Positions 4,332 to 13,861 of a stretch of DNA of 64,000 bases are shown here, piece after piece (the stretch's first letter is position 1; every line of letters begins with the position of its first letter). The notes under the pieces are model-generated. The model worked only from the letters and a program-made list of their open reading frames with translations. It was not told the origin of the DNA and ran no database searches. The stretch is from Halopiger xanaduensis SH-6 (GTDB lineage: Archaea > Halobacteriota > Halobacteria > Halobacteriales > Natrialbaceae), in assembly GCF_000217715.1 (NCBI RefSeq), contig NC_015666.1:2616270-2680269 (forward strand), in the 5' to 3' direction. The position numbers were made by a program, and so were the translations under genes.

Positions 4332-5930
4332 TCAGCGATCGTCGACGTCGATTCCGTCCTCGAGCAGCCGATCCCGAACGGCCTCGCGGTCGACGGTCCC
4401 CGACGCCGTTCGCGGAAGCGAGTCGGCGAACGCGATCATCTTCGGTTTCTTGAATCCCGCGAGGTGCTCGTCGCAGTGTGCGAGCAGCGAGTCGACGTTG
4501 GACTCGACCTCCGCGTCTGCAGCCGGTACGACCAGCGCCGCGACGCGCTCGCTCCACTCGGGATCCTCGAGGCCGACGACGGCGGCGTCCTCGACGGCTG
4601 GATGCTCGCGCAGGATTGCGACTACCTCGCCGGGATCGACGTTCTCGCCGCCGGTGACGATGCGGTCGCTGCGCCGGTTGAGGATCCGGAGTCGGCCGTC
4701 TGCGTCTCGGTAGCCGACGTCGCCGGTATGGAGCCCGCGGTCGCCGAACGCCTCGTCGGTGCGATCGGAATCGAGATATCCGGGCGTCACCGTCGGCCCC
4801 GAGACGACCAGTTCGCCGGGCTCGTCGGACGGAACCGGGTCGCCGTCCTCGTCGATGATCGTCACGTCGGTGTTCACGAGCGGCTGGCCGACCGTCCCCT
4901 CGTGCTCGCGAACGTCGGCCGGCGTCGCGGTCGCGACCTGCGAGGCCGTCTCGGTCATCCCGTAGGTCGGGTGGACCGGCACGCCGGCCTCGAGGCAGCG
5001 CTCGAGCAACTCGCTCGAGGCTGGTGCGCCGCCGAGCAGGACGAACCGGAGCGATTCGGGCGGTTCCCAGTCCGCGTCGAGGAGCCGCTTGCACATCGTC
5101 GGGACGAGCGAGACGCCCGTGATATCGTACTCGTCCATCACGCGTGCGGTCTCGCGGGCGTCGAACTCCCGCTGGATCACGACGGTCGTCCCGTACAGCG
5201 TCGATCGGACGATCGGCGCGAGCCCGCCCATGTGGTACATCGGGAGACAGCAGAGCCAGCGGTCATTTCGGTCGACGCCCAGCCGGAACGCGGAGGCAGT
5301 CGCGCTGGCGACGAGGTTGCCGACCGTCAGCCGGACGATCTTCGGCTCGCCGGACGTTCCGGAGGTGAACAGCAGGAGTTGCGTATCGTCGCGCTCGAGG
5401 GGAACGGGATCGACCGACGGCGAACCCGAATCGCCGCCCGCGGTCGCCTCGAGGAACTGAACGTCGGTGTCGGTCTCGGTGTCGGCGTCGGATCCGGACT
5501 CGGGTTCGTCGACCGAGAGCACCGGGAGTCGACGACCGTCGGTCGACGCTGCAAGTTCGAGTGCCGTCGATTCGGTCTCGCTCTCGCAAATGACGGCCTC
5601 GAGTTCGGTTCGCTCGACCTTGGCGGCGAGTTCGTCGGTCGTCTCGCGGACGTTCAGCGGGACGACCGTCAGTCCGAGCCGCATCGCCGCGAAGAAGACG
5701 GTCGCGAAGGCCGGCCGCGTGTCCATGCAGACGCCGAGTCGGTCGTCGACGACGCCTTCGTCCTCGAGCGCCGCCGCGGTGCGATCGACCCGACGGTCGA
5801 AGTCGGCGTAGGTCCACTCCACGCTTGCGTCCCCGTCACCTGCGTCCGCGTCGGCGTCGATCAGCGCCGTCCGCTCGGGCGTCGTCGCAGCTCTGTGCGC
5901 GAGGAGGTCGCGGGTCGGCCACTCCGCCAT
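4332..5930 (-). CDS. menE: o-succinylbenzoate--CoA ligase
   Basis: This adenylate-forming enzyme (532 aa) activates o-succinylbenzoate with ATP and CoA in menaquinone synthesis. The P-loop-like LLLFTSGTSGEPKIVRLT, YGMTETASQ, the hinge TGDVGYRDADGRLRILNRRSD and the catalytic Lys in PRTASGTVDREAV (as LPRTASGTVDR; the FKKPK stretch lies before it) are present. The start is ATG 5930. An in-frame GTG overlapping the menC stop (near 5957) is possible but leaves no room for a ribosome site. The run of Asp/Glu around residues 150-180 is an acidic insertion typical of halophiles. It is the last of three tightly packed men genes. Confidence 0.92.
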   Translation of the reverse strand: MAEWPTRDLLAHRAATTPERTALIDADADAGDGDASVEWTYADFDRRVDRTAAALEDEGVVDDRLGVCMDTRPAFATVFFAAMRLGLTVVPLNVRETTDELAAKVERTELEAVICESETESTALELAASTDGRRLPVLSVDEPESGSDADTETDTDVQFLEATAGGDSGSPSVDPVPLERDDTQLLLFTSGTSGEPKIVRLTVGNLVASATASAFRLGVDRNDRWLCCLPMYHMGGLAPIVRSTLYGTTVVIQREFDARETARVMDEYDITGVSLVPTMCKRLLDADWEPPESLRFVLLGGAPASSELLERCLEAGVPVHPTYGMTETASQVATATPADVREHEGTVGQPLVNTDVTIIDEDGDPVPSDEPGELVVSGPTVTPGYLDSDRTDEAFGDRGLHTGDVGYRDADGRLRILNRRSDRIVTGGENVDPGEVVAILREHPAVEDAAVVGLEDPEWSERVAALVVPAADAEVESNVDSLLAHCDEHLAGFKKPKMIAFADSLPRTASGTVDREAVRDRLLEDGIDVDDR

Positions 5931-5953
5931 CGTCGTCGCACCCGCGGGCCCCG

Positions 5954-7069
5954 TCACTCCTCCCACACCCCCTCGATGCCCAGCCCCTTCGCCTGGGGAA
6001 CGACGGCCGCTCCCTTCTCGAGCAGGACCGGATCGCGCCCGAGGTCCTCGGCGAGCAGTTCGGCGGTGGCGAGCCCGCAGGCCGGCACGTCGGGAATCGC
6101 CGCCGCGAGGTGGACGGCGCCGGTCCGCGCGACGACGCCGTCGATGGTCGTCGTGACGATCGGCGCGATATCGACCTCCATCACCCACGCGGCGACCCGA
6201 CGGGCGACGTCGACCCCGCCCAATGCCATCGGCTTCAACACGACGGCGTCCGCGGCCTCGGCGTCGCAGATCGCGTCGACGCCGTGCTCGAGCAGCCCTT
6301 CGTCCAAGGCGATATCGACGCCGGTGTCCATCCTGCGGAGGTCGGCGTGGCCCTCGAGCGCACCCGCCGGAAGCGGTTGTTCGACCAGCGAGACGCCGAG
6401 GTCGGCGAAGGCCTCGAGGGCGGACTCGGCATCCTCGTAGGTCCAGGCTTCGTTCGCGTCCGCGCGGAGTTCGACGGCGTCGTCGACCGCGTCCCGGGCC
6501 TCGCGGACGCGTTCGATGTCCTCCTCGACGCTGCGCAGGCCGACCTTGAGCTTGCAGCAGGCGTAGCCGCGCTCGCTGGCCTCCCGCACGGCCGTTCGAG
6601 TTTCGGCGGGCGAGCAGTCGCCGACGGTCGCGTTTACCGGCACGCGACCGACCATCGGTCCGTTCCCGAGATAGCGGTACAGCGGCGTCGCGTGCCGCGA
6701 CGACTGGAGATCCGCGAGCGCGAGCGAGACCGCGTGGCGGGCCGCGACCTGCCGATCGACCGCCTCGAGCGCCTCGTTCGGACCGCCGGCGCGGAACGCG
6801 TCCTGCGCGCGCTCGAGGGCCGCCCGACAGTCGTCTCGGGATTCGGTCCAGCCCGGCAGCGGGGTCGCCTCGCCGTAGCCGACGACGCCGTTCTCGTCGG
6901 CCAGTCGCACGAGAAAGCCGTCGCGGGACTCGATCGTCCCGTTGGACGTCTCGAGCGGGCTGGCGAGTTCGAGCGAGAAGGGGCGGAACTCGAACTCGAG
7001 GTTGGCGTTGGGGTCGGAGTCGGAGTCGCGATCGGGATCGCGGTCCGAACCCGGATCGGAACCGCTCAT
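5954..7069 (-). CDS. menC: o-succinylbenzoate synthase
   Basis: This enolase-superfamily enzyme (371 aa) dehydrates SHCHC to o-succinylbenzoate. The catalytic Lys motif (CCKLKVG) and the metal-ligand strands ending ELRADANEAW, LVEQPLP and ALDEGL are in the expected order, followed by VVLKPMALGG. The N-terminus starts with a low-complexity Asp/Ser repeat (residues 3-21) unlike the family core. ATG 7069 overlaps the menA stop (ATGA), indicating translational coupling. The stop falls 23 nt before menE. Confidence 0.93.
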   Translation of the reverse strand: MSGSDPGSDRDPDRDSDSDPNANLEFEFRPFSLELASPLETSNGTIESRDGFLVRLADENGVVGYGEATPLPGWTESRDDCRAALERAQDAFRAGGPNEALEAVDRQVAARHAVSLALADLQSSRHATPLYRYLGNGPMVGRVPVNATVGDCSPAETRTAVREASERGYACCKLKVGLRSVEEDIERVREARDAVDDAVELRADANEAWTYEDAESALEAFADLGVSLVEQPLPAGALEGHADLRRMDTGVDIALDEGLLEHGVDAICDAEAADAVVLKPMALGGVDVARRVAAWVMEVDIAPIVTTTIDGVVARTGAVHLAAAIPDVPACGLATAELLAEDLGRDPVLLEKGAAVVPQAKGLGIEGVWEE

Positions 7070-8001
7070 AGCACCACCAGCCCGGCGGCGAACAGTACCG
7101 CGTAGAGGGCGAGTAGCTTTCCGGTCCCCTCGAGCGCCGGGTTGAGCGCCTCGCCGTCGGTTCTGGTCAGTACGGTTCGGGTTACCGACGCGGCGTAGGG
7201 CAGCGAGACAAGCGGGAGCAGGGCGCCGAGGCCGAAGCCCTCGAGCCAGAACCAGAACGGTGCGAGGTAGGCCAGCGCGAGCAGCGCCAGGTACTCGACG
7301 CGGCTCCACCGGTAGCCGAGCCGAACCGCGAGCGTTCGCTTCCCGGTCTCGGCGTCGGTCTCCTTGTCCCGGATGTTGTTCACGACGATGATACAGGTCG
7401 AAATCGCGCCGACGGGGAGGCTGGCGACGAACGCCTCGAGGGTGATCGTTCCTTCGGGGATCGCGGTCGTTAGCGGCTCTGCGAGGACCGCGGCCGCCTG
7501 GACGTAGAACGTCCCCATCACGGCGACGACCCCGAAGAAAACGAAGACGAAGGGGTCGCCGAGCCCGTGGTAGCCCAGCGGGTAGGGGCCGCCGGTGTAG
7601 GCCCAGCCGCAGAGGACGCTGACGAGGCCGATCACGAGGATCGGCACGCCGCCGATGTAGACGAGATACGTTCCGGTGAAGATCGCCAGCGCGAACGTGA
7701 CGATCGTCGCGAGCTTGACCTGTTCAGCGGGGATCAGGCCCGACTGCGTGACGCGGGTGAATCCCTCGCGGTCCTCCGTGTCCGCACCCTTGATCGCGTC
7801 GTAGTAGTCGTTCGCGAAGTTGGTGCCGATCTGGATCAGCGCCGCGCCGACGAACGCCAGCAGCGCGGGCACCGGGGAAAACACGCCCTCGGAGACCGCG
7901 AGTCCGGTACCGACGATAACGGGCGCCGCGGCCGCGGGCAACGTCTGCGGGCGCGCCGCCATCAGCCACGCCTTCGTCCGTGACGTCTCCACCTCGGTCA
8001 T
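7066..8001 (-). CDS. menA: 1,4-dihydroxy-2-naphthoate polyprenyltransferase
   Basis: This UbiA-family integral membrane prenyltransferase (311 aa) attaches the isoprenoid tail to DHNA to give demethylmenaquinone. The first Asp-rich motif is NDYYDAIKGADT (residues 64-75) and the second is the DKETDAETGKRTLAV segment near 210. About eight or nine hydrophobic segments are visible. It is the first gene of the menA-menC-menE run, and its stop overlaps the menC ATG by 4 nt. The start is ATG 8001 with a GC-rich upstream spacer of 74 nt to the next gene. Confidence 0.93.
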   Translation of the reverse strand: MTEVETSRTKAWLMAARPQTLPAAAAPVIVGTGLAVSEGVFSPVPALLAFVGAALIQIGTNFANDYYDAIKGADTEDREGFTRVTQSGLIPAEQVKLATIVTFALAIFTGTYLVYIGGVPILVIGLVSVLCGWAYTGGPYPLGYHGLGDPFVFVFFGVVAVMGTFYVQAAAVLAEPLTTAIPEGTITLEAFVASLPVGAISTCIIVVNNIRDKETDAETGKRTLAVRLGYRWSRVEYLALLALAYLAPFWFWLEGFGLGALLPLVSLPYAASVTRTVLTRTDGEALNPALEGTGKLLALYAVLFAAGLVVL

Positions 8002-8075
8002 ACCTCGAGTGTCCCACTCGAGAGAGTGTCAACGTTGGCATTGCAGTCGAGCGATTGCGGCCCGGTCGCGCCGCC

Positions 8076-9380
8076 TCAGGTCTTCGGCACGACCAGTTCG
8101 ACCGGCGGCATCTCGAGAAACGCCGTCTCGTACCCCTGATGGCGGGCGATCTGCGGCGGCGACTCGATCTCGATCGCGACTGAATCGCCGGCTTCGACGC
8201 CCGAGACATCACCGATCTCCGACAGCGAAACTCCGTAGTGCAGCCCGTACTCCCCGTCGAGCGTCTGCTCGAGCGGCGCGTCACCGAGTTCCGTCCCGTC
8301 GCGCTCGATCGTCGCACGCAGGGACATATCCGCCAGCGGCACGCGGTTGTACGGCGTCCGCGGCGAGACGAGGAGATACTGCCCGTCGCCAGCCAGTCGG
8401 TGCTCCGACTCGAGCAGCGTCGCGAGAACCCCCGCGTCGCCGCTTCGCGGGAGGTCGCTCGTCTCGGGATTCTCGTGGTCGGGGCCGCCGTTTTCGTTAT
8501 CAGAATCGGACTCGAGGAGCAACGTGCCGGGATAGGCGTCGACCGGCGGCAGCATGGAGTAGGGAATCCCACTGTCGCTGTCGTTCTCGTCAGTCGCCAT
8601 CATCCCCATCGGCTCGAGTGCACCGCGCTCGCCCCATCGCTCCTCGTCGAGGTACTCGACGCCGCCGACGACCGACTCGCGGAACTCGTCGTCGTACTCG
8701 AACTCGAAGGTGGCCGTCGCGCGCTCGTCTAATCGGCCGGCGAGGTCACCGGTTTTCCGGGTCGAAATCGGCGGCAGGGTGACCTCGACGGTGTAGGTGC
8801 CGTCGCCCGGCAGCCCGACGTTGTCGCCGAAGTGAAAGCCCATCTCCTGGGAGAGCATGGCCCACGGCTGGCGCGGCGCGCCGACCTGTTCGCCGTCCCG
8901 TCGAATCCGAATTTGGACGCCTTCGTCGACCGGGAGGACGGTTCCCGTTTCGGTGTCCCAGGCGACGAACATCATGTGCACGCCGTCCGGGTCGTCCGGC
9001 GTCGTCCGCTCGACCGCGTCGTCGGCGTCGCCGGCGATCACCCAGAACTGGTGGGGGTAGGAGAGCATCGGCGCAAGCGCGTAGTCGCCGGCTTCGACCG
9101 GCTCGAGCATCTGCATCGACTCGCGGTGGGTCGGCAGGTAGACGGCCTCGGGCGGGTCCTCGACGGTGATCTGTCGCGGAAGGGTCGCGTCGCCGCCGTC
9201 ACCAGTCTCGTTCTCGCTCCCATTTCCGGCGTCGTCGTCCGCGGGGTCGCTTTCGTTCTCGTCGGACTCGTCGTCAGTGCTCGTACAACCCGCGAGCGCG
9301 AGCGTTCCCGTTACTGCTCCCGTTCGGCGGACGAAGGTTCGTCGATCGATGGCCTCGAGCGCTTGCGTTCGGTCTTGCAT
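8076..9380 (-). CDS. Tat-exported Tp34/P19-like iron-binding lipoprotein
   Basis: The N-terminus (434 aa protein) has a twin-arginine stretch (RRTFVRR, residues 13-19), a hydrophobic segment and a lipobox LAGC with Cys32, then an acidic Ser/Asp linker. Residues about 90-240 match the Tp34/P19 periplasmic iron-transport fold: AGDYALAPMLSYPHQFWV, GVHMMFVAWDTETGTVLPVDEGVQI, and AMLSQEMGFHFGDNV with the Met/His cluster expected for metal binding. The C-terminal half (about 280-434) looks like a second beta-domain. It lies 57 nt downstream of the DyP-like gene. In bacteria, P19-type proteins work with iron permeases; no permease is seen here. Confidence 0.8.
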   Translation of the reverse strand: MQDRTQALEAIDRRTFVRRTGAVTGTLALAGCTSTDDESDENESDPADDDAGNGSENETGDGGDATLPRQITVEDPPEAVYLPTHRESMQMLEPVEAGDYALAPMLSYPHQFWVIAGDADDAVERTTPDDPDGVHMMFVAWDTETGTVLPVDEGVQIRIRRDGEQVGAPRQPWAMLSQEMGFHFGDNVGLPGDGTYTVEVTLPPISTRKTGDLAGRLDERATATFEFEYDDEFRESVVGGVEYLDEERWGERGALEPMGMMATDENDSDSGIPYSMLPPVDAYPGTLLLESDSDNENGGPDHENPETSDLPRSGDAGVLATLLESEHRLAGDGQYLLVSPRTPYNRVPLADMSLRATIERDGTELGDAPLEQTLDGEYGLHYGVSLSEIGDVSGVEAGDSVAIEIESPPQIARHQGYETAFLEMPPVELVVPKT

Positions 9381-9437
9381 GTGTCTCGCGTCGTGTCCTC
9401 GTGCGTGTTGTTCTCGCTCGGGTCTACCCGTCTCGAG

Positions 9438-10769
9438 TCAGTCACCCTCAATCTCGGCGTCGGGATCGGCCGGCGGCAGGGCGCGCAGCGACCGCGGCGG
9501 CACCAGATAGTTGCCGCGCCGGTCGACGAAGATGTAGTGGCGAATGCCGTTGTTCGCCATCGGCACGTCCAGATCCGCGCCCGTCATCGCCTCGCGGGTT
9601 CGGACGAAGTCGTCGATCCCCCGCTGGAGCGCGAGGAAGTGGACGCCCGGCCGATCGCCGTCGACGGTATTGAAATCGCGGCGCAGGAGCGGCGGTTCCC
9701 CGTCCTCGCGGGCTCGAGCGGCCTTCTGCGCGTGCCCGACGACGTTGTGCTCGCGCGCGTCGTCCGCGGTGGCGTCGATCCGCTCGGTCGTCAACCCGTT
9801 CGTCGTCGTCAGTTCCTCGCCGACGTCGCCGACGAGTTCCTCTTCGGCGTGCTCCCGGCTGAACAGTTTCGAGACGCGTTGCGTGTGGTTCTCCTGCTGG
9901 AACCACTGCTCGAGGTTGATCTCCAGCGATTCGATATGCTGGGTCGTCCCGCCGGCGAACGGCCCCGACTCGATCGTCACTCGATCCTCGGTCGCCTGAC
10001 TAGCCTGGAACCCCGAGCGAAAGCCCATGAAAAAGGGCGCGTCCTCGGGCACCGACTCCGGGACGCCGGAGACGTCCGTACGGTCGGCCGGCAGCCCCGC
10101 GCCGACGAAGCCGGTCCGCCGGCGATCCTCGAGGCGCTCGAAGACGCCCGTTAGGTCGGTCTCGACCTCGAGGCCGTTCAGTCGGTCGCGTTGGCCGAAC
10201 AGTCCCTCCTCGGCCTCGAGGACGACCTCGGGGCGATCGCTCGCGAGGTGGAGTACGGCGTCGAACTCGTCGAACGCGGGGGCCTCCTGTGCGGTCAGCG
10301 CCTCGGGTTCCGGGAGGCCGACCGCGTCGGGCAGCGGCCCGTCGAATCGGTCGAAGTACGCCGGCGTGTAGCCGAGCGTGAACACGAGTCCGTCGTTGCT
10401 CCACTCGTAGGCGCGCTCGAGCGTTTGCAGCGCGGATTCGGTTGTCTCGCGTGCGTCCTCGGCGACGGAGTGGTCCGTGCCGTCGCCAGCATCATCGAAG
10501 ACGCCGTCCCGGAGCGATAGCGCCACCAGCACGTGATGTTCCGGCGGCCGAACGTTGCCGTCCTCGTCCGTCGTCAGCGCTTCGTTCCACGCGTGCTGGC
10601 GGTCAGGAAGCGACTCGGGATCGGACGTTCCGGTCGGTACGTCCGGGTCGCCGTCGTCGCCGTCGCTGGCGAACTCGAGGCAGGCGCTCAGCGCCGTCGT
10701 CCCGCCGACGGCGACCAGCGCACGGAGGTAGTCCCGTCGGGGCAGCGAGGACCGATCGGGAAGCGTCAC
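9438..10769 (-). CDS. DyP-like peroxidase-fold lipoprotein, catalytic Asp apparently lost
   Basis: The leader has LPRRDYLRALVAVGG and LSAC with Cys30, fitting Tat export with lipid anchoring (443 aa). The C-terminal half follows the dye-decolourising peroxidase plan: GFRSG at 249-253 where DyPs have GxxDG, GPFAGGTTQHIESLEINLEQW (269-289), the proximal-heme His region VVGHAQKAARA (343-352) and PLLRRDFN with VHFLALQRGIDDF (360-388). The conserved catalytic Asp is Ser252 here. The family may correspond to what is annotated as DUF7405, which I recall but cannot check. It pairs with the iron lipoprotein downstream, recalling EfeO/EfeB-type iron systems. Heme binding is plausible; classical peroxidase activity is doubtful. 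Confidence 0.8.
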   Translation of the reverse strand: MTLPDRSSLPRRDYLRALVAVGGTTALSACLEFASDGDDGDPDVPTGTSDPESLPDRQHAWNEALTTDEDGNVRPPEHHVLVALSLRDGVFDDAGDGTDHSVAEDARETTESALQTLERAYEWSNDGLVFTLGYTPAYFDRFDGPLPDAVGLPEPEALTAQEAPAFDEFDAVLHLASDRPEVVLEAEEGLFGQRDRLNGLEVETDLTGVFERLEDRRRTGFVGAGLPADRTDVSGVPESVPEDAPFFMGFRSGFQASQATEDRVTIESGPFAGGTTQHIESLEINLEQWFQQENHTQRVSKLFSREHAEEELVGDVGEELTTTNGLTTERIDATADDAREHNVVGHAQKAARAREDGEPPLLRRDFNTVDGDRPGVHFLALQRGIDDFVRTREAMTGADLDVPMANNGIRHYIFVDRRGNYLVPPRSLRALPPADPDAEIEGD

Positions 10770-10900
10770 TACGTAACCTACCGGCCGTGAGCCCCAAATG
10801 GCTTTCTCTCAGCGGCTACGTGCGTCTCCGTCCGACTACGTTTCCCATCGTTCTCGCGGTCGCGTTCGTGCTCGTGCTCGAGATCGAGTCGATCCGACCG

Positions 10901-11791
10901 TCAGTAATGCCACGGGAAGTCGTCGAAATCCGGCTCTCGGCCCTCGACGAACGCGTCTCGGCCCTCCTTGGCCTCGTCGGTCATATATCCGAGTCGGGTC
11001 GCCTCGCCGGCGAACACCTGCTGGCCGATCATGCCGTCGTCGGTCATGTTGAACCCGTACTTGAGCATCCGCATCGCCGTCGGGCTCTTGGAGTTGATCC
11101 GCTCGCCCCACTCGAGGGCCGTCTCCTCGAGGTCCTCGTGGGGGACGACCTCGTTGACCATTCCCATATCGGCGGCTTCCTCGGCGTCGTAGGTCTTCCC
11201 GAGGAAGAACACCTCGCGGGCCTTCTTCTGGCCGATCTGCTTGGCGAGGTACGCGGACCCGAAGCCGGCGTCGTAGCTGGCCACGTCGGGGTCGGTCTGG
11301 AGGAACTTGGCGTGCTCCTCGCTCGCAAGGGTGAGATCGCAGACGACGTGCAGCGAGTGGCCGCCGCCGACGGCCCAGCCGGGGACGACGCAGACGACGA
11401 CCTTCGGAATGTGGCGAATGAGGCGCTGGACCTCGAGGATGTGCAGCCGTCCTTGCTCGGATGCCCGCTCCTCGTCCCCGTCGTACTGGTACCCGTCCTC
11501 GCCGCGGATCGTCTGATCCCCACCGGAACAGAACGCCCAGCCGCCGTCCTTCGGTGACGGGCCGTTTCCGGTCAGGAAGACACAACCCACGTCGGTTTGG
11601 CGTTTCGCGTGCTCGAGGGCGTCGTACAGTTCGTCGACGGTCCCCGGCCGGAAGGCGTTGCGCACCTCGGGGCGGTCGAAGGCGATCCGGACCGTCCCGG
11701 AGTCGACCGCGCGGTGGTAGGTGATATCGCGGAAGTCGTCGTTGGGCTCGAGCGGCTCCCAGCGCTCGGGATCGAACAGTTCCGAAACCAT
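10901..11791 (-). CDS. menB: 1,4-dihydroxy-2-naphthoyl-CoA synthase
   Basis: This crotonase-family enzyme (296 aa) closes the second ring of o-succinylbenzoyl-CoA. VRNAFRPGTVDELYDAL, the oxyanion region CSGGDQTIRG, VVCVVPGWAVGGGHSLHVVCDLTLAS and DPDVASYDAGFGSAYLA are characteristic of MenB rather than other crotonases, as is the C-terminal FPWHY. The ATG at 11791 fits a full-length family start. It is separated from menA by the iron lipoprotein pair and from menD by a 3.5-kb accessory block, so it is probably transcribed on its own. Confidence 0.94.
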   Translation of the reverse strand: MVSELFDPERWEPLEPNDDFRDITYHRAVDSGTVRIAFDRPEVRNAFRPGTVDELYDALEHAKRQTDVGCVFLTGNGPSPKDGGWAFCSGGDQTIRGEDGYQYDGDEERASEQGRLHILEVQRLIRHIPKVVVCVVPGWAVGGGHSLHVVCDLTLASEEHAKFLQTDPDVASYDAGFGSAYLAKQIGQKKAREVFFLGKTYDAEEAADMGMVNEVVPHEDLEETALEWGERINSKSPTAMRMLKYGFNMTDDGMIGQQVFAGEATRLGYMTDEAKEGRDAFVEGREPDFDDFPWHY

Positions 11792-12218: not shown

Positions 12219-13628
12219 TCACGCTCGAGTGGCGTTCAGTCCCTGCTCGATGTCAGTGGCGTAGGTCTCGTCAACCTCGAGCGGCGTCGGACTGTCCCGG
12301 ACCGTGTTCGTCGCGACGACGCCGGCCGCGCCGGAGCGGATGCGGATTCCCGCCGCGTCGGCGCCGTTGATCGAGTTTCCAGTCACGGTGAAGCTGTGGG
12401 GCCGTTCCGTCTCGCGGGCGGCCTCGTCCTCGGGGTCCGCGGGAACGGTTCGGGCGAGGATCCCGACCGGACAGTTGTCGACCTGGTTGCCCGAAATCGT
12501 GATGTCGTACGAACGAGCGCGGTCCGTCCCGGCGATTTCCTCGCGGACGTGGGTCTCCTTGTACTCGATCTCGATCCCCGCCTCGCCGCCCGGATCGGGT
12601 TTGTACTCCTCGAGGCCCCGACAGACGTTGCCGACGATGGCGCCCTGCTGGGCGGGCGAACACGCGATGAGACTGTGGCCGCCCTCCTCGACGACGTTGC
12701 CGTAGACGGTGAAGTTGCTGACGTTGTAGGTCGCGATGTTGTTGTAGGTCACGCCGGCGACGTAGTTCCGCGCGACGACCACGTTCTCCGAGCGGCGCAG
12801 ATCGCGGTCGCCGCCGGTCGGGGCGGCGCGGCTGGTGATCCCGTACCAGTTGGGATCGAGCACCTCGTTGCCGACGACCTGCACGTTGCGACACCGCGAG
12901 AACGAGATCGCCATCTGGAACCCCTCGACGGTGCGGTTGTTCGCGATCACCAGCCCGTCGCAGTCGTCGGCCTGAATCGCGTGGTTGTCGGTTTGCGTGC
13001 CGTCGGCGTCGAACTCGATATTGGCCACCGTCGCGCCGTCGCCGCGAACGCGGATCAGGTCGTGGCCCGACTCCCCGCTCGCGCCGGCCACGACGAACCG
13101 GGTTCCGCCGCTGCCGACCAGCCCGGTGTCGTCGCCGACCGTCGCTGGCCCGCCGAACTCGAAGGTATCGCCGCTCGCGACGACGGTGCCGCCGGACGCC
13201 GGGAGTTCGTCAAAGGCGTGCTGGAACGCCTCCTCCGCGGTGCCGTCGGTCGCGAACGCGATCGTTCCCGTGTCGCCCTCGAGAACCAGGTACTCGGCGT
13301 CGGCGAGACGCCCGTGGCCGCGGCCGCGTTCCGCGTCGGTCGCGCTACCGTTGCCGTTTCCGGCGCCGTTTCGATTTCCGTTCTGGTTGCCGTTTCCGTT
13401 CCCGTTGTTGCTCCACCCTCGTTTACGGCCCGGAAGCGCGCCATCGCCGATCCGAGCGACGTAGTACACCGCACCGGAGCCGTCCGGAGCGGCGGTCGGC
13501 TGCGCTCGGCCGGAGCCGGTCAGCGCGCCGAGTCCGACGGTCGCGCCGAGTCCGCTGAGGAACGATCGACGCGTCGGCTGTCCGTTCGCTGCGGGCCATC
13601 CGTTCGTGGTACCGCTCTCGTCGAACAT
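12219..13628 (-). CDS. Tat-exported right-handed beta-helix protein
   Basis: A twin-arginine leader (PTRRSFLSGLGATVGLGALTG, near residues 18-38) ends around GRAQP. An Asn/Gly-rich linker follows, then a right-handed parallel beta-helix from about residue 190 onward with repeated turns such as VVGNEVLDPNWYG, VVARNYVAGV, FTVYGNVVEEGG, AIVGNVCRG, ITISGNQVDN and FTVTGNSINGA. Such folds bind or cleave polysaccharides or act as adhesins. No polysaccharide-lyase catalytic motif is evident. I start at ATG 13628; a TTG at 13655 is weaker. The 3' end abuts the palindromic repeat. Confidence 0.85.
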   Translation of the reverse strand: MFDESGTTNGWPAANGQPTRRSFLSGLGATVGLGALTGSGRAQPTAAPDGSGAVYYVARIGDGALPGRKRGWSNNGNGNGNQNGNRNGAGNGNGSATDAERGRGHGRLADAEYLVLEGDTGTIAFATDGTAEEAFQHAFDELPASGGTVVASGDTFEFGGPATVGDDTGLVGSGGTRFVVAGASGESGHDLIRVRGDGATVANIEFDADGTQTDNHAIQADDCDGLVIANNRTVEGFQMAISFSRCRNVQVVGNEVLDPNWYGITSRAAPTGGDRDLRRSENVVVARNYVAGVTYNNIATYNVSNFTVYGNVVEEGGHSLIACSPAQQGAIVGNVCRGLEEYKPDPGGEAGIEIEYKETHVREEIAGTDRARSYDITISGNQVDNCPVGILARTVPADPEDEAARETERPHSFTVTGNSINGADAAGIRIRSGAAGVVATNTVRDSPTPLEVDETYATDIEQGLNATRA

Positions 13629-13861
13629 CACCCGGGACTGCCGACGACCGGCCAATGGTGTTTTATAATAGCCGTACGGTTGAATTCTGAGCGTTATGTC
13701 GGGAATATACCGGACACGACGGCTACGTACCGGACGGCGTGTTCCGGGCGTTGGCGCTCGAGCTGTCGCGCTCGTAACTTCGTCAGAAAGACGCCAGCTG
13801 AGCTACCGGGCAGCGCGACCGACCGCGAAAAACATAGTCGTCGATTCCGTACCCTCCGCCG

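Follow-up and report, generated by a model that had tools for sequence, protein, structure and literature searches.

The window studied here, the whole stretch of 64,000 nucleotides from Halopiger xanaduensis SH-6 (contig NC_015666.1, positions 2,616,270 to 2,680,269), contains a gene for a putative lipoprotein built on the plan of the DyP-type peroxidases, in which the distal Asp of the GxxDG motif is replaced by Ser. The question raised by this locus is whether a protein altered in this way may still perform peroxidase chemistry or whether, as the original prediction suggested, a heme-binding fold deprived of this Asp serves a heme sensor, a heme carrier or an iron-extracting protein instead.

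The DUF7405 gene and its product

The gene occupies positions 9438–10769 of the minus strand and encodes 443 amino acids. It begins with a GTG codon, the position of which is the same in a close relative (L001). The product belongs to DUF7405 (PF24152), a Pfam entry without function, which it matches with 502.9 bits (gathering score 27.1) over positions 1–347 of the 347 of the profile; the match to Dyp_perox_C is marginal (20.4 bits at a cut-off of 20). The N-terminus harbors the twin-arginine motif R11 R12 (10734–10739, minus strand), kept in 109 of 110 aligned sequences, and the lipobox LSAC with Cys30 (10680–10691, minus strand), the Cys being kept in 107 of them. Both the twin Arg and the lipobox Cys of a Tat lipoprotein are present, and export of the protein by this route is predicted from the sequence. 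In the literature, no paper on DUF7405 by name was found, and nothing on point was found for a haloarchaeal DyP or for the combination of P19, Tp34 and DyP in Halobacteria.

The AlphaFold2 model of the protein, computed with 57 homologues, has a mean pLDDT of 88.5 and a pTM of 0.88. The best 50 matches of this model among the PDB structures (Foldseek) are all DyP structures, with the top E-value of 1.2e-16 for 5de0 and with TM-scores up to 0.74 by target length. A phmmer search of the PDB with the single protein gave no match, and a profile search of the PDB sequences placed DyPs (TyrA, deferrochelatase and PpDyP) at the top with E-values of 0.05–0.6. Since these values are weak, the assignment of DUF7405 to the DyP (dimeric alpha/beta barrel) fold is based on the structural comparison of the predicted model.

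Residues of the heme pocket

The profile of DUF7405 was aligned with profiles of A-type and B-type DyPs, for which the E. coli proteins EfeB and YfeX were combined with plasmid-borne relatives. The counterpart of GxxDG is the GFRSG motif (residues 249–253; 10011–10025, minus strand), which aligns with GFKDG of EfeB and GFVDG of YfeX, so that Ser252 takes the place of the distal Asp (D235 and D143, respectively). His346 (9732–9734, minus strand), the predicted proximal heme ligand, corresponds to H329 of EfeB and H215 of YfeX, and Arg363 (9681–9683, minus strand), the predicted distal Arg, corresponds to R347 and R232. Asp365 (9675–9677, minus strand), located two residues after this Arg, falls on Gly349 of EfeB and Ser234 of YfeX. 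The strand GPFAGGT (residues 269–275; 9945–9965, minus strand) aligns with the GGSY/GGS strand of DyPs, and the distal Arg belongs to the LLRRDFN stretch (residues 361–367).

This mapping is identical in the global and local modes of hhalign and for both DyP types. The global-mode E-values are 2.3e-19 for the A-type and 1e-7 for the B-type profile versus 0.92 for the unrelated control profile (DUF7350). The local-mode E-values were discounted as evidence because the same control scored 7.5e-07 in this mode. His346 is matched to the proximal His of PpDyP as well (profile search of the PDB sequences), and D143, H215 and R232 of YfeX have the same numbering as the catalytic residues of KpDyP (PMC6153280). 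The geometry of the DUF7405 pocket is that suggested by these alignments.

The Asp of GxxDG is lost across the family

Conservation was evaluated on 218 distinct homologues drawn from 292 sampled haloarchaeal genomes and from other sources. Position 252 is occupied by Ser in 135 of them and by Ala in 71; the rest have Thr (4), Asn (4), Val (2), Gly (1) and Asp (1). The lone Asp, part of a GFNDL motif, belongs to a divergent DUF7405 protein (L099 / L111) that has 651 residues and carries a long insertion. His346, Arg363 and Arg364 are invariant (218/218), and the acidic Glu261 (9987–9989, minus strand) is found in 217. A homologue encoded on a Streptomyces plasmid scores 295.6 bits against DUF7405; it has MGFHSG at this site, and its proximal His and both Arg of the RR pair are conserved. 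As Ser occurs in this bacterial protein too, Ser/Ala is a trait of the family and not a haloarchaeal accident. The presence of the substitution across the family also led to the rejection of a one-off mutation or a sequencing artefact in the window as its cause.

The original prediction had recognized the lipoprotein, the DyP plan with its GPFAGGT strand, proximal His region and LLRRDFN stretch, and GFRSG in place of GxxDG. All of these are borne out by the conserved N-terminal motifs, the predicted fold and the profile alignments, and the alignment of the GxxDG column, which it had proposed as a check, reveals no isolated change.

Strictly defined, a DyP-type peroxidase has GxxDG with the distal Asp, a proximal His and a distal Arg. 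The His is present in DUF7405, as judged from its position in the sequence, and so is the predicted distal Arg, but the Asp was looked for and is absent. Under the strict definition, DUF7405 is therefore no DyP-type peroxidase; its fold is that of the DyPs, and it may function as they do. A further variation of the motif is seen in an annotated Dyp-type peroxidase of Streptomyces sp. NBC_01527 (L148), which has FTEG at this site, with Glu for Asp.

Loss of the Asp and peroxidase chemistry

Which of the two distal residues, Asp or Arg, activates peroxide in DyPs is debated, and the evidence comes mostly from mutants. DUF7405 offers a natural experiment on this debate, being a large family in which the Asp was dropped, the Arg was kept and Asp or His occupies the second position after the Arg. 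The distal Asp matters in DtpA. In the B-type enzyme DtpB, exchange of the Asp for Ala leaves Compound I formation as in the wild type, and it is the Arg variant that is crippled (PMC8463360). The D143A variant of KpDyP still forms Compound I, about 1000 times slower, and the latter then reacts more quickly with substrates (PMC6153280). As Compound I is formed in the Asp variants of both DtpB and KpDyP, it does not follow that a protein without this Asp has no peroxidase chemistry; its lack is compatible with such chemistry. Of the original prediction, the DyP-like heme-type fold and the loss of the Asp, which proved to be family-wide with the His and the Arg kept, stand; the conclusion that peroxidase chemistry is absent is not supported, in view of the DtpB and KpDyP variants.

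Position 365

The residue at the second position after the distal Arg is Asp in 137 homologues, His in 72, Ser in 6 and Thr in 3. In 13 canonical DyPs this site is occupied by Gly, Ser, Ala or Leu (A-type) and by Asn or Ser (B-type); Asp or His, typical of DUF7405, was never found at the B-type site among the DyPs sampled. It forms part of the distal pocket in B-type enzymes, being Asn in DtpB and DypB. In DtpB, the distal-pocket Asn245 fills the site where A-type enzymes have a water molecule bonded to their distal Asp (PMC8463360), and this Asn is two positions after Arg243, as deduced from the names of the variants among the Foldseek matches. By analogy with Asn245, position 365 of DUF7405 probably faces the distal pocket, and it may be the place to which the acid/base has moved. 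The original prediction had named in advance a finding that would refute it, a conserved Asp at another site of the pocket; with Asp or His at position 365, such a residue is at least partly found.

Positions 252 and 365 are occupied mostly by the pairs Ser/Asp (125 sequences) and Ala/His (69). Taken as independent proof of a contact, this covariation was rejected: on the tree it is essentially one switch, i.e. one independent pair.

A divergent DUF7405 subfamily (37–41% identical) is encoded beside CRTAC1-family genes on plasmids (L139, L140 and L142). In its aligned copies, position 365 is occupied by Ser or Thr, and position 252 by Ser. Possibly its substrate is different.

DUF7350, the genomic partner of DUF7405

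The gene of another Tat lipoprotein, DUF7350, is located 57 bp downstream of the DUF7405 gene (8076–9380, minus strand). Its product contains a P19/FetP/FtrA/Tp34-like domain: the best 27 PDB matches of its model (pLDDT 84) are all P19, FetP, FtrA, HftA or Tp34. The protein carries the GFHFGDNVGLPG motif together with invariant His and Met residues. It differs from P19, FetP, FtrA and Tp34 in its length of 350–480 amino acids, an extra C-terminal domain and the Tat lipobox.

The two families are closely associated. Of 145 haloarchaeal genomes (those common to the lists of both families), 124 have both, 4 have DUF7405 only, none has DUF7350 only and 17 have neither. The Fisher p-value of 1e-18 overstates this association because the genomes are related to each other; joint absence is seen in at least 7 genera. 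Three of the four genomes with DUF7405 only possess exclusively the divergent type of this protein. The two genes are 6 kb or less apart in at least 47 of the 75 genomes with positions for both, with about 1% expected by chance. A metal-binding partner of the P19 or EfeO type is characteristic of EfeUOB/Ftr systems, and DUF7350 answers to this description by its P19-like fold and its genomic coupling. These properties suggest that DUF7350 is a lipoprotein of the Cu/Fe-binding type that acts together with DUF7405; of the original prediction, a metal or iron setting is supported by this partner.

Known P19/FetP-type systems are paired with a permease of the Ftr1 type, whereas none was found for DUF7350: the FTR1/EfeU permease was detected in 0 of 141 haloarchaeal genomes, four controls being positive. 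The pair suggests an extracytoplasmic metal-oxidation module that works without the usual permease. It provides a testable function for two families of unknown function that occur in about 85–90% of haloarchaeal genomes.

Genes related to metals are also found near DUF7405 at other loci. Plasmid copies adjoin two genes annotated as “iron transporter”, with a heavy-metal P-ATPase nearby, and one such plasmid island of metal genes further includes a multicopper oxidase, a plastocyanin and a ZIP-type transporter. In all 8 loci of the Natrinema type, the divergent neighbour is a gene of a ferritin-domain (ferritin/Dps-type) protein.

Possible function of DUF7405

Our preferred explanation, in which we have about even confidence, is that DUF7405 is an extracytoplasmic heme enzyme with a Cu/Fe-binding partner, an EfeB-like role and an altered distal pocket. 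The DyP-fold protein would be exported by the Tat system and then anchored to lipid. It would most likely bind heme b through His346 and catalyze redox reactions outside the cell that depend on peroxide or oxygen. DUF7350 would hold or deliver Fe(II) or Cu(I), which would probably be oxidized by DUF7405 by analogy with EfeB and DtpA, both of which are reported to oxidize Fe2+ and Cu+ (review PMC8197335). In the distal pocket, Ser or Ala replaces the Asp of GxxDG and the Arg is kept, and Asp or His at position 365 could act as the acid/base. Taken together, the predicted fold, the conservation of residues, the family-wide substitution and the pairing with DUF7350, with no FTR1 found, suggest a variant metal-linked heme enzyme and not a broken peroxidase.

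A parallel in role is provided by the A-type DyPs E. coli EfeB and S. lividans DtpA, with which DUF7405 has in common the fold, the (here predicted) Tat export and a set of metal-handling genes, and the proximal His and the distal RR motif of EfeB align with its own. In contrast to EfeB, with its GxxDG Asp and the Gly after the RR pair, DUF7405 has Ser/Ala and Asp/His at these sites; it also has a lipid anchor, and no EfeO (M75) gene adjoins it in the regions examined. The top Foldseek matches are B-type DyPs (E. coli YfeX, S. lividans DtpB and R. jostii DypB). D143, H215 and R232 of YfeX align with Ser252, His346 and Arg363, and in DtpB catalysis can rely on the Arg. B-type enzymes are about 300 amino acids long, lack a Tat lipoprotein N-terminus and keep the Asp, and DUF7405 differs from them in each of these respects.

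The following speaks against the EfeB-like explanation. With no FTR1 found in the 141 genomes, the import route of the Efe/Ftr type is incomplete, and the CRTAC1-adjacent subfamily, with Ser/Thr365 and Ser252, occurs in genomes without DUF7350.

A more far-reaching proposal is tentative. According to it, DUF7405 is a lineage of the DyP fold in which the distal acid/base has shifted from the GxxDG strand to the second position after the Arg, where one large clade has Asp and another has His. This would be a catalytically competent third design of the distal pocket, including a distal-His branch with Ala252 and His365, and the enzyme would oxidize metals together with a P19-like partner, no FTR1 permease being involved.

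It is rather unlikely that the protein is not an enzyme at all, i.e. that its fold was kept for heme in a carrier, a sensor or an extractor of heme iron and that peroxide activation was lost together with the Asp. The family-wide loss of this Asp agrees with such a role, as does the presence of a metal/iron partner, and EfeB itself reportedly takes the iron out of heme without breaking the ring (Letoffe 2009, as cited in PMC9174327). However, a pure carrier would not need the distal Arg, which is invariant, and Asp or His follows at position 365; loss of the Asp alone leaves the formation of Compound I in DyPs, and none of the genomic contexts inspected revealed a sensory partner.

Less probable is an ordinary DyP-type peroxidase that runs on the distal Arg, as reported for DtpB and Rhodococcus DypB, with positions 252 and 365 free to vary and with no special role of metals. 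Arg-dependent DyPs are documented (PMC8463360; Singh et al. 2012, as cited in PMC8197335), and several DUF7405 homologues already have the NCBI name “Dyp-type peroxidase domain-containing protein”. The close coupling to DUF7350 and to genes related to metals speaks against this view, and positions 252 and 365 are each limited to few residues instead of varying freely. Finally, most families of the dimeric alpha/beta barrel superfamily bind no heme (4 of 23 do, PMC7611857), but the invariance of the proximal His and the distal Arg, the bacterial homologue included, makes it improbable that DUF7405 is a heme-free structural or metal-binding partner of DUF7350.

Distribution and genomic context

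Of 292 haloarchaeal genomes, 261 contain DUF7405; no sampled genome from the rest of the phylum, beyond this order, has it. One DUF7405 protein is encoded in the genome of Haloferax volcanii. As a Streptomyces homologue exists, the family is not strictly haloarchaeal. The Streptomyces plasmid gene (L136:6989–8065), a case of cross-domain transfer, encodes a protein without the Tat-lipobox N-terminus and adjoins genes of an NAD(P)H-binding protein and a zinc-binding dehydrogenase. A redundant ordinary DyP elsewhere in haloarchaea was also considered and rejected: the 24 Dyp_perox_C matches in the 292 genomes score only 21–31 bits, those checked coincide with DUF7405 genes, and no strong canonical DyP was found.

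A second copy of the gene in the same genome (G000:C3:1866395–1867429; L029, L256) encodes a protein that is 57% identical and has GFRSG too, with no DUF7350 identified adjoining it. One small genome (G285:C53) gives six DUF7405 matches, of which three are fragments, two of these with stop codons; this may be an array of decaying copies.

In the window, the pair lies within a run of menaquinone genes (4332–11791) in the order menB, the pair, menA, menC and menE. The upstream neighbour is menB, the gene of 1,4-dihydroxy-2-naphthoyl-CoA synthase (10901–11791, minus strand), and the downstream one is menA, the gene of DHNA polyprenyltransferase (7066–8001, minus strand). The pair is inserted in the men run also in Natrarchaeobius and Natronorubrum (L001–L003), and menB precedes it in Natrialba (L004); in other haloarchaea it is located elsewhere. 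A link of the pair to quinones is possible. In several relatives DUF7350 is followed by a gene of a small cohesin-domain protein (L003:8567–9214, L005:8650–9282); in the window, no such gene separates DUF7350 from menA. Positions 12219–13655 encode a NosD-like protein of the right-handed beta-helix type, the N-terminus of which is Tat-like.
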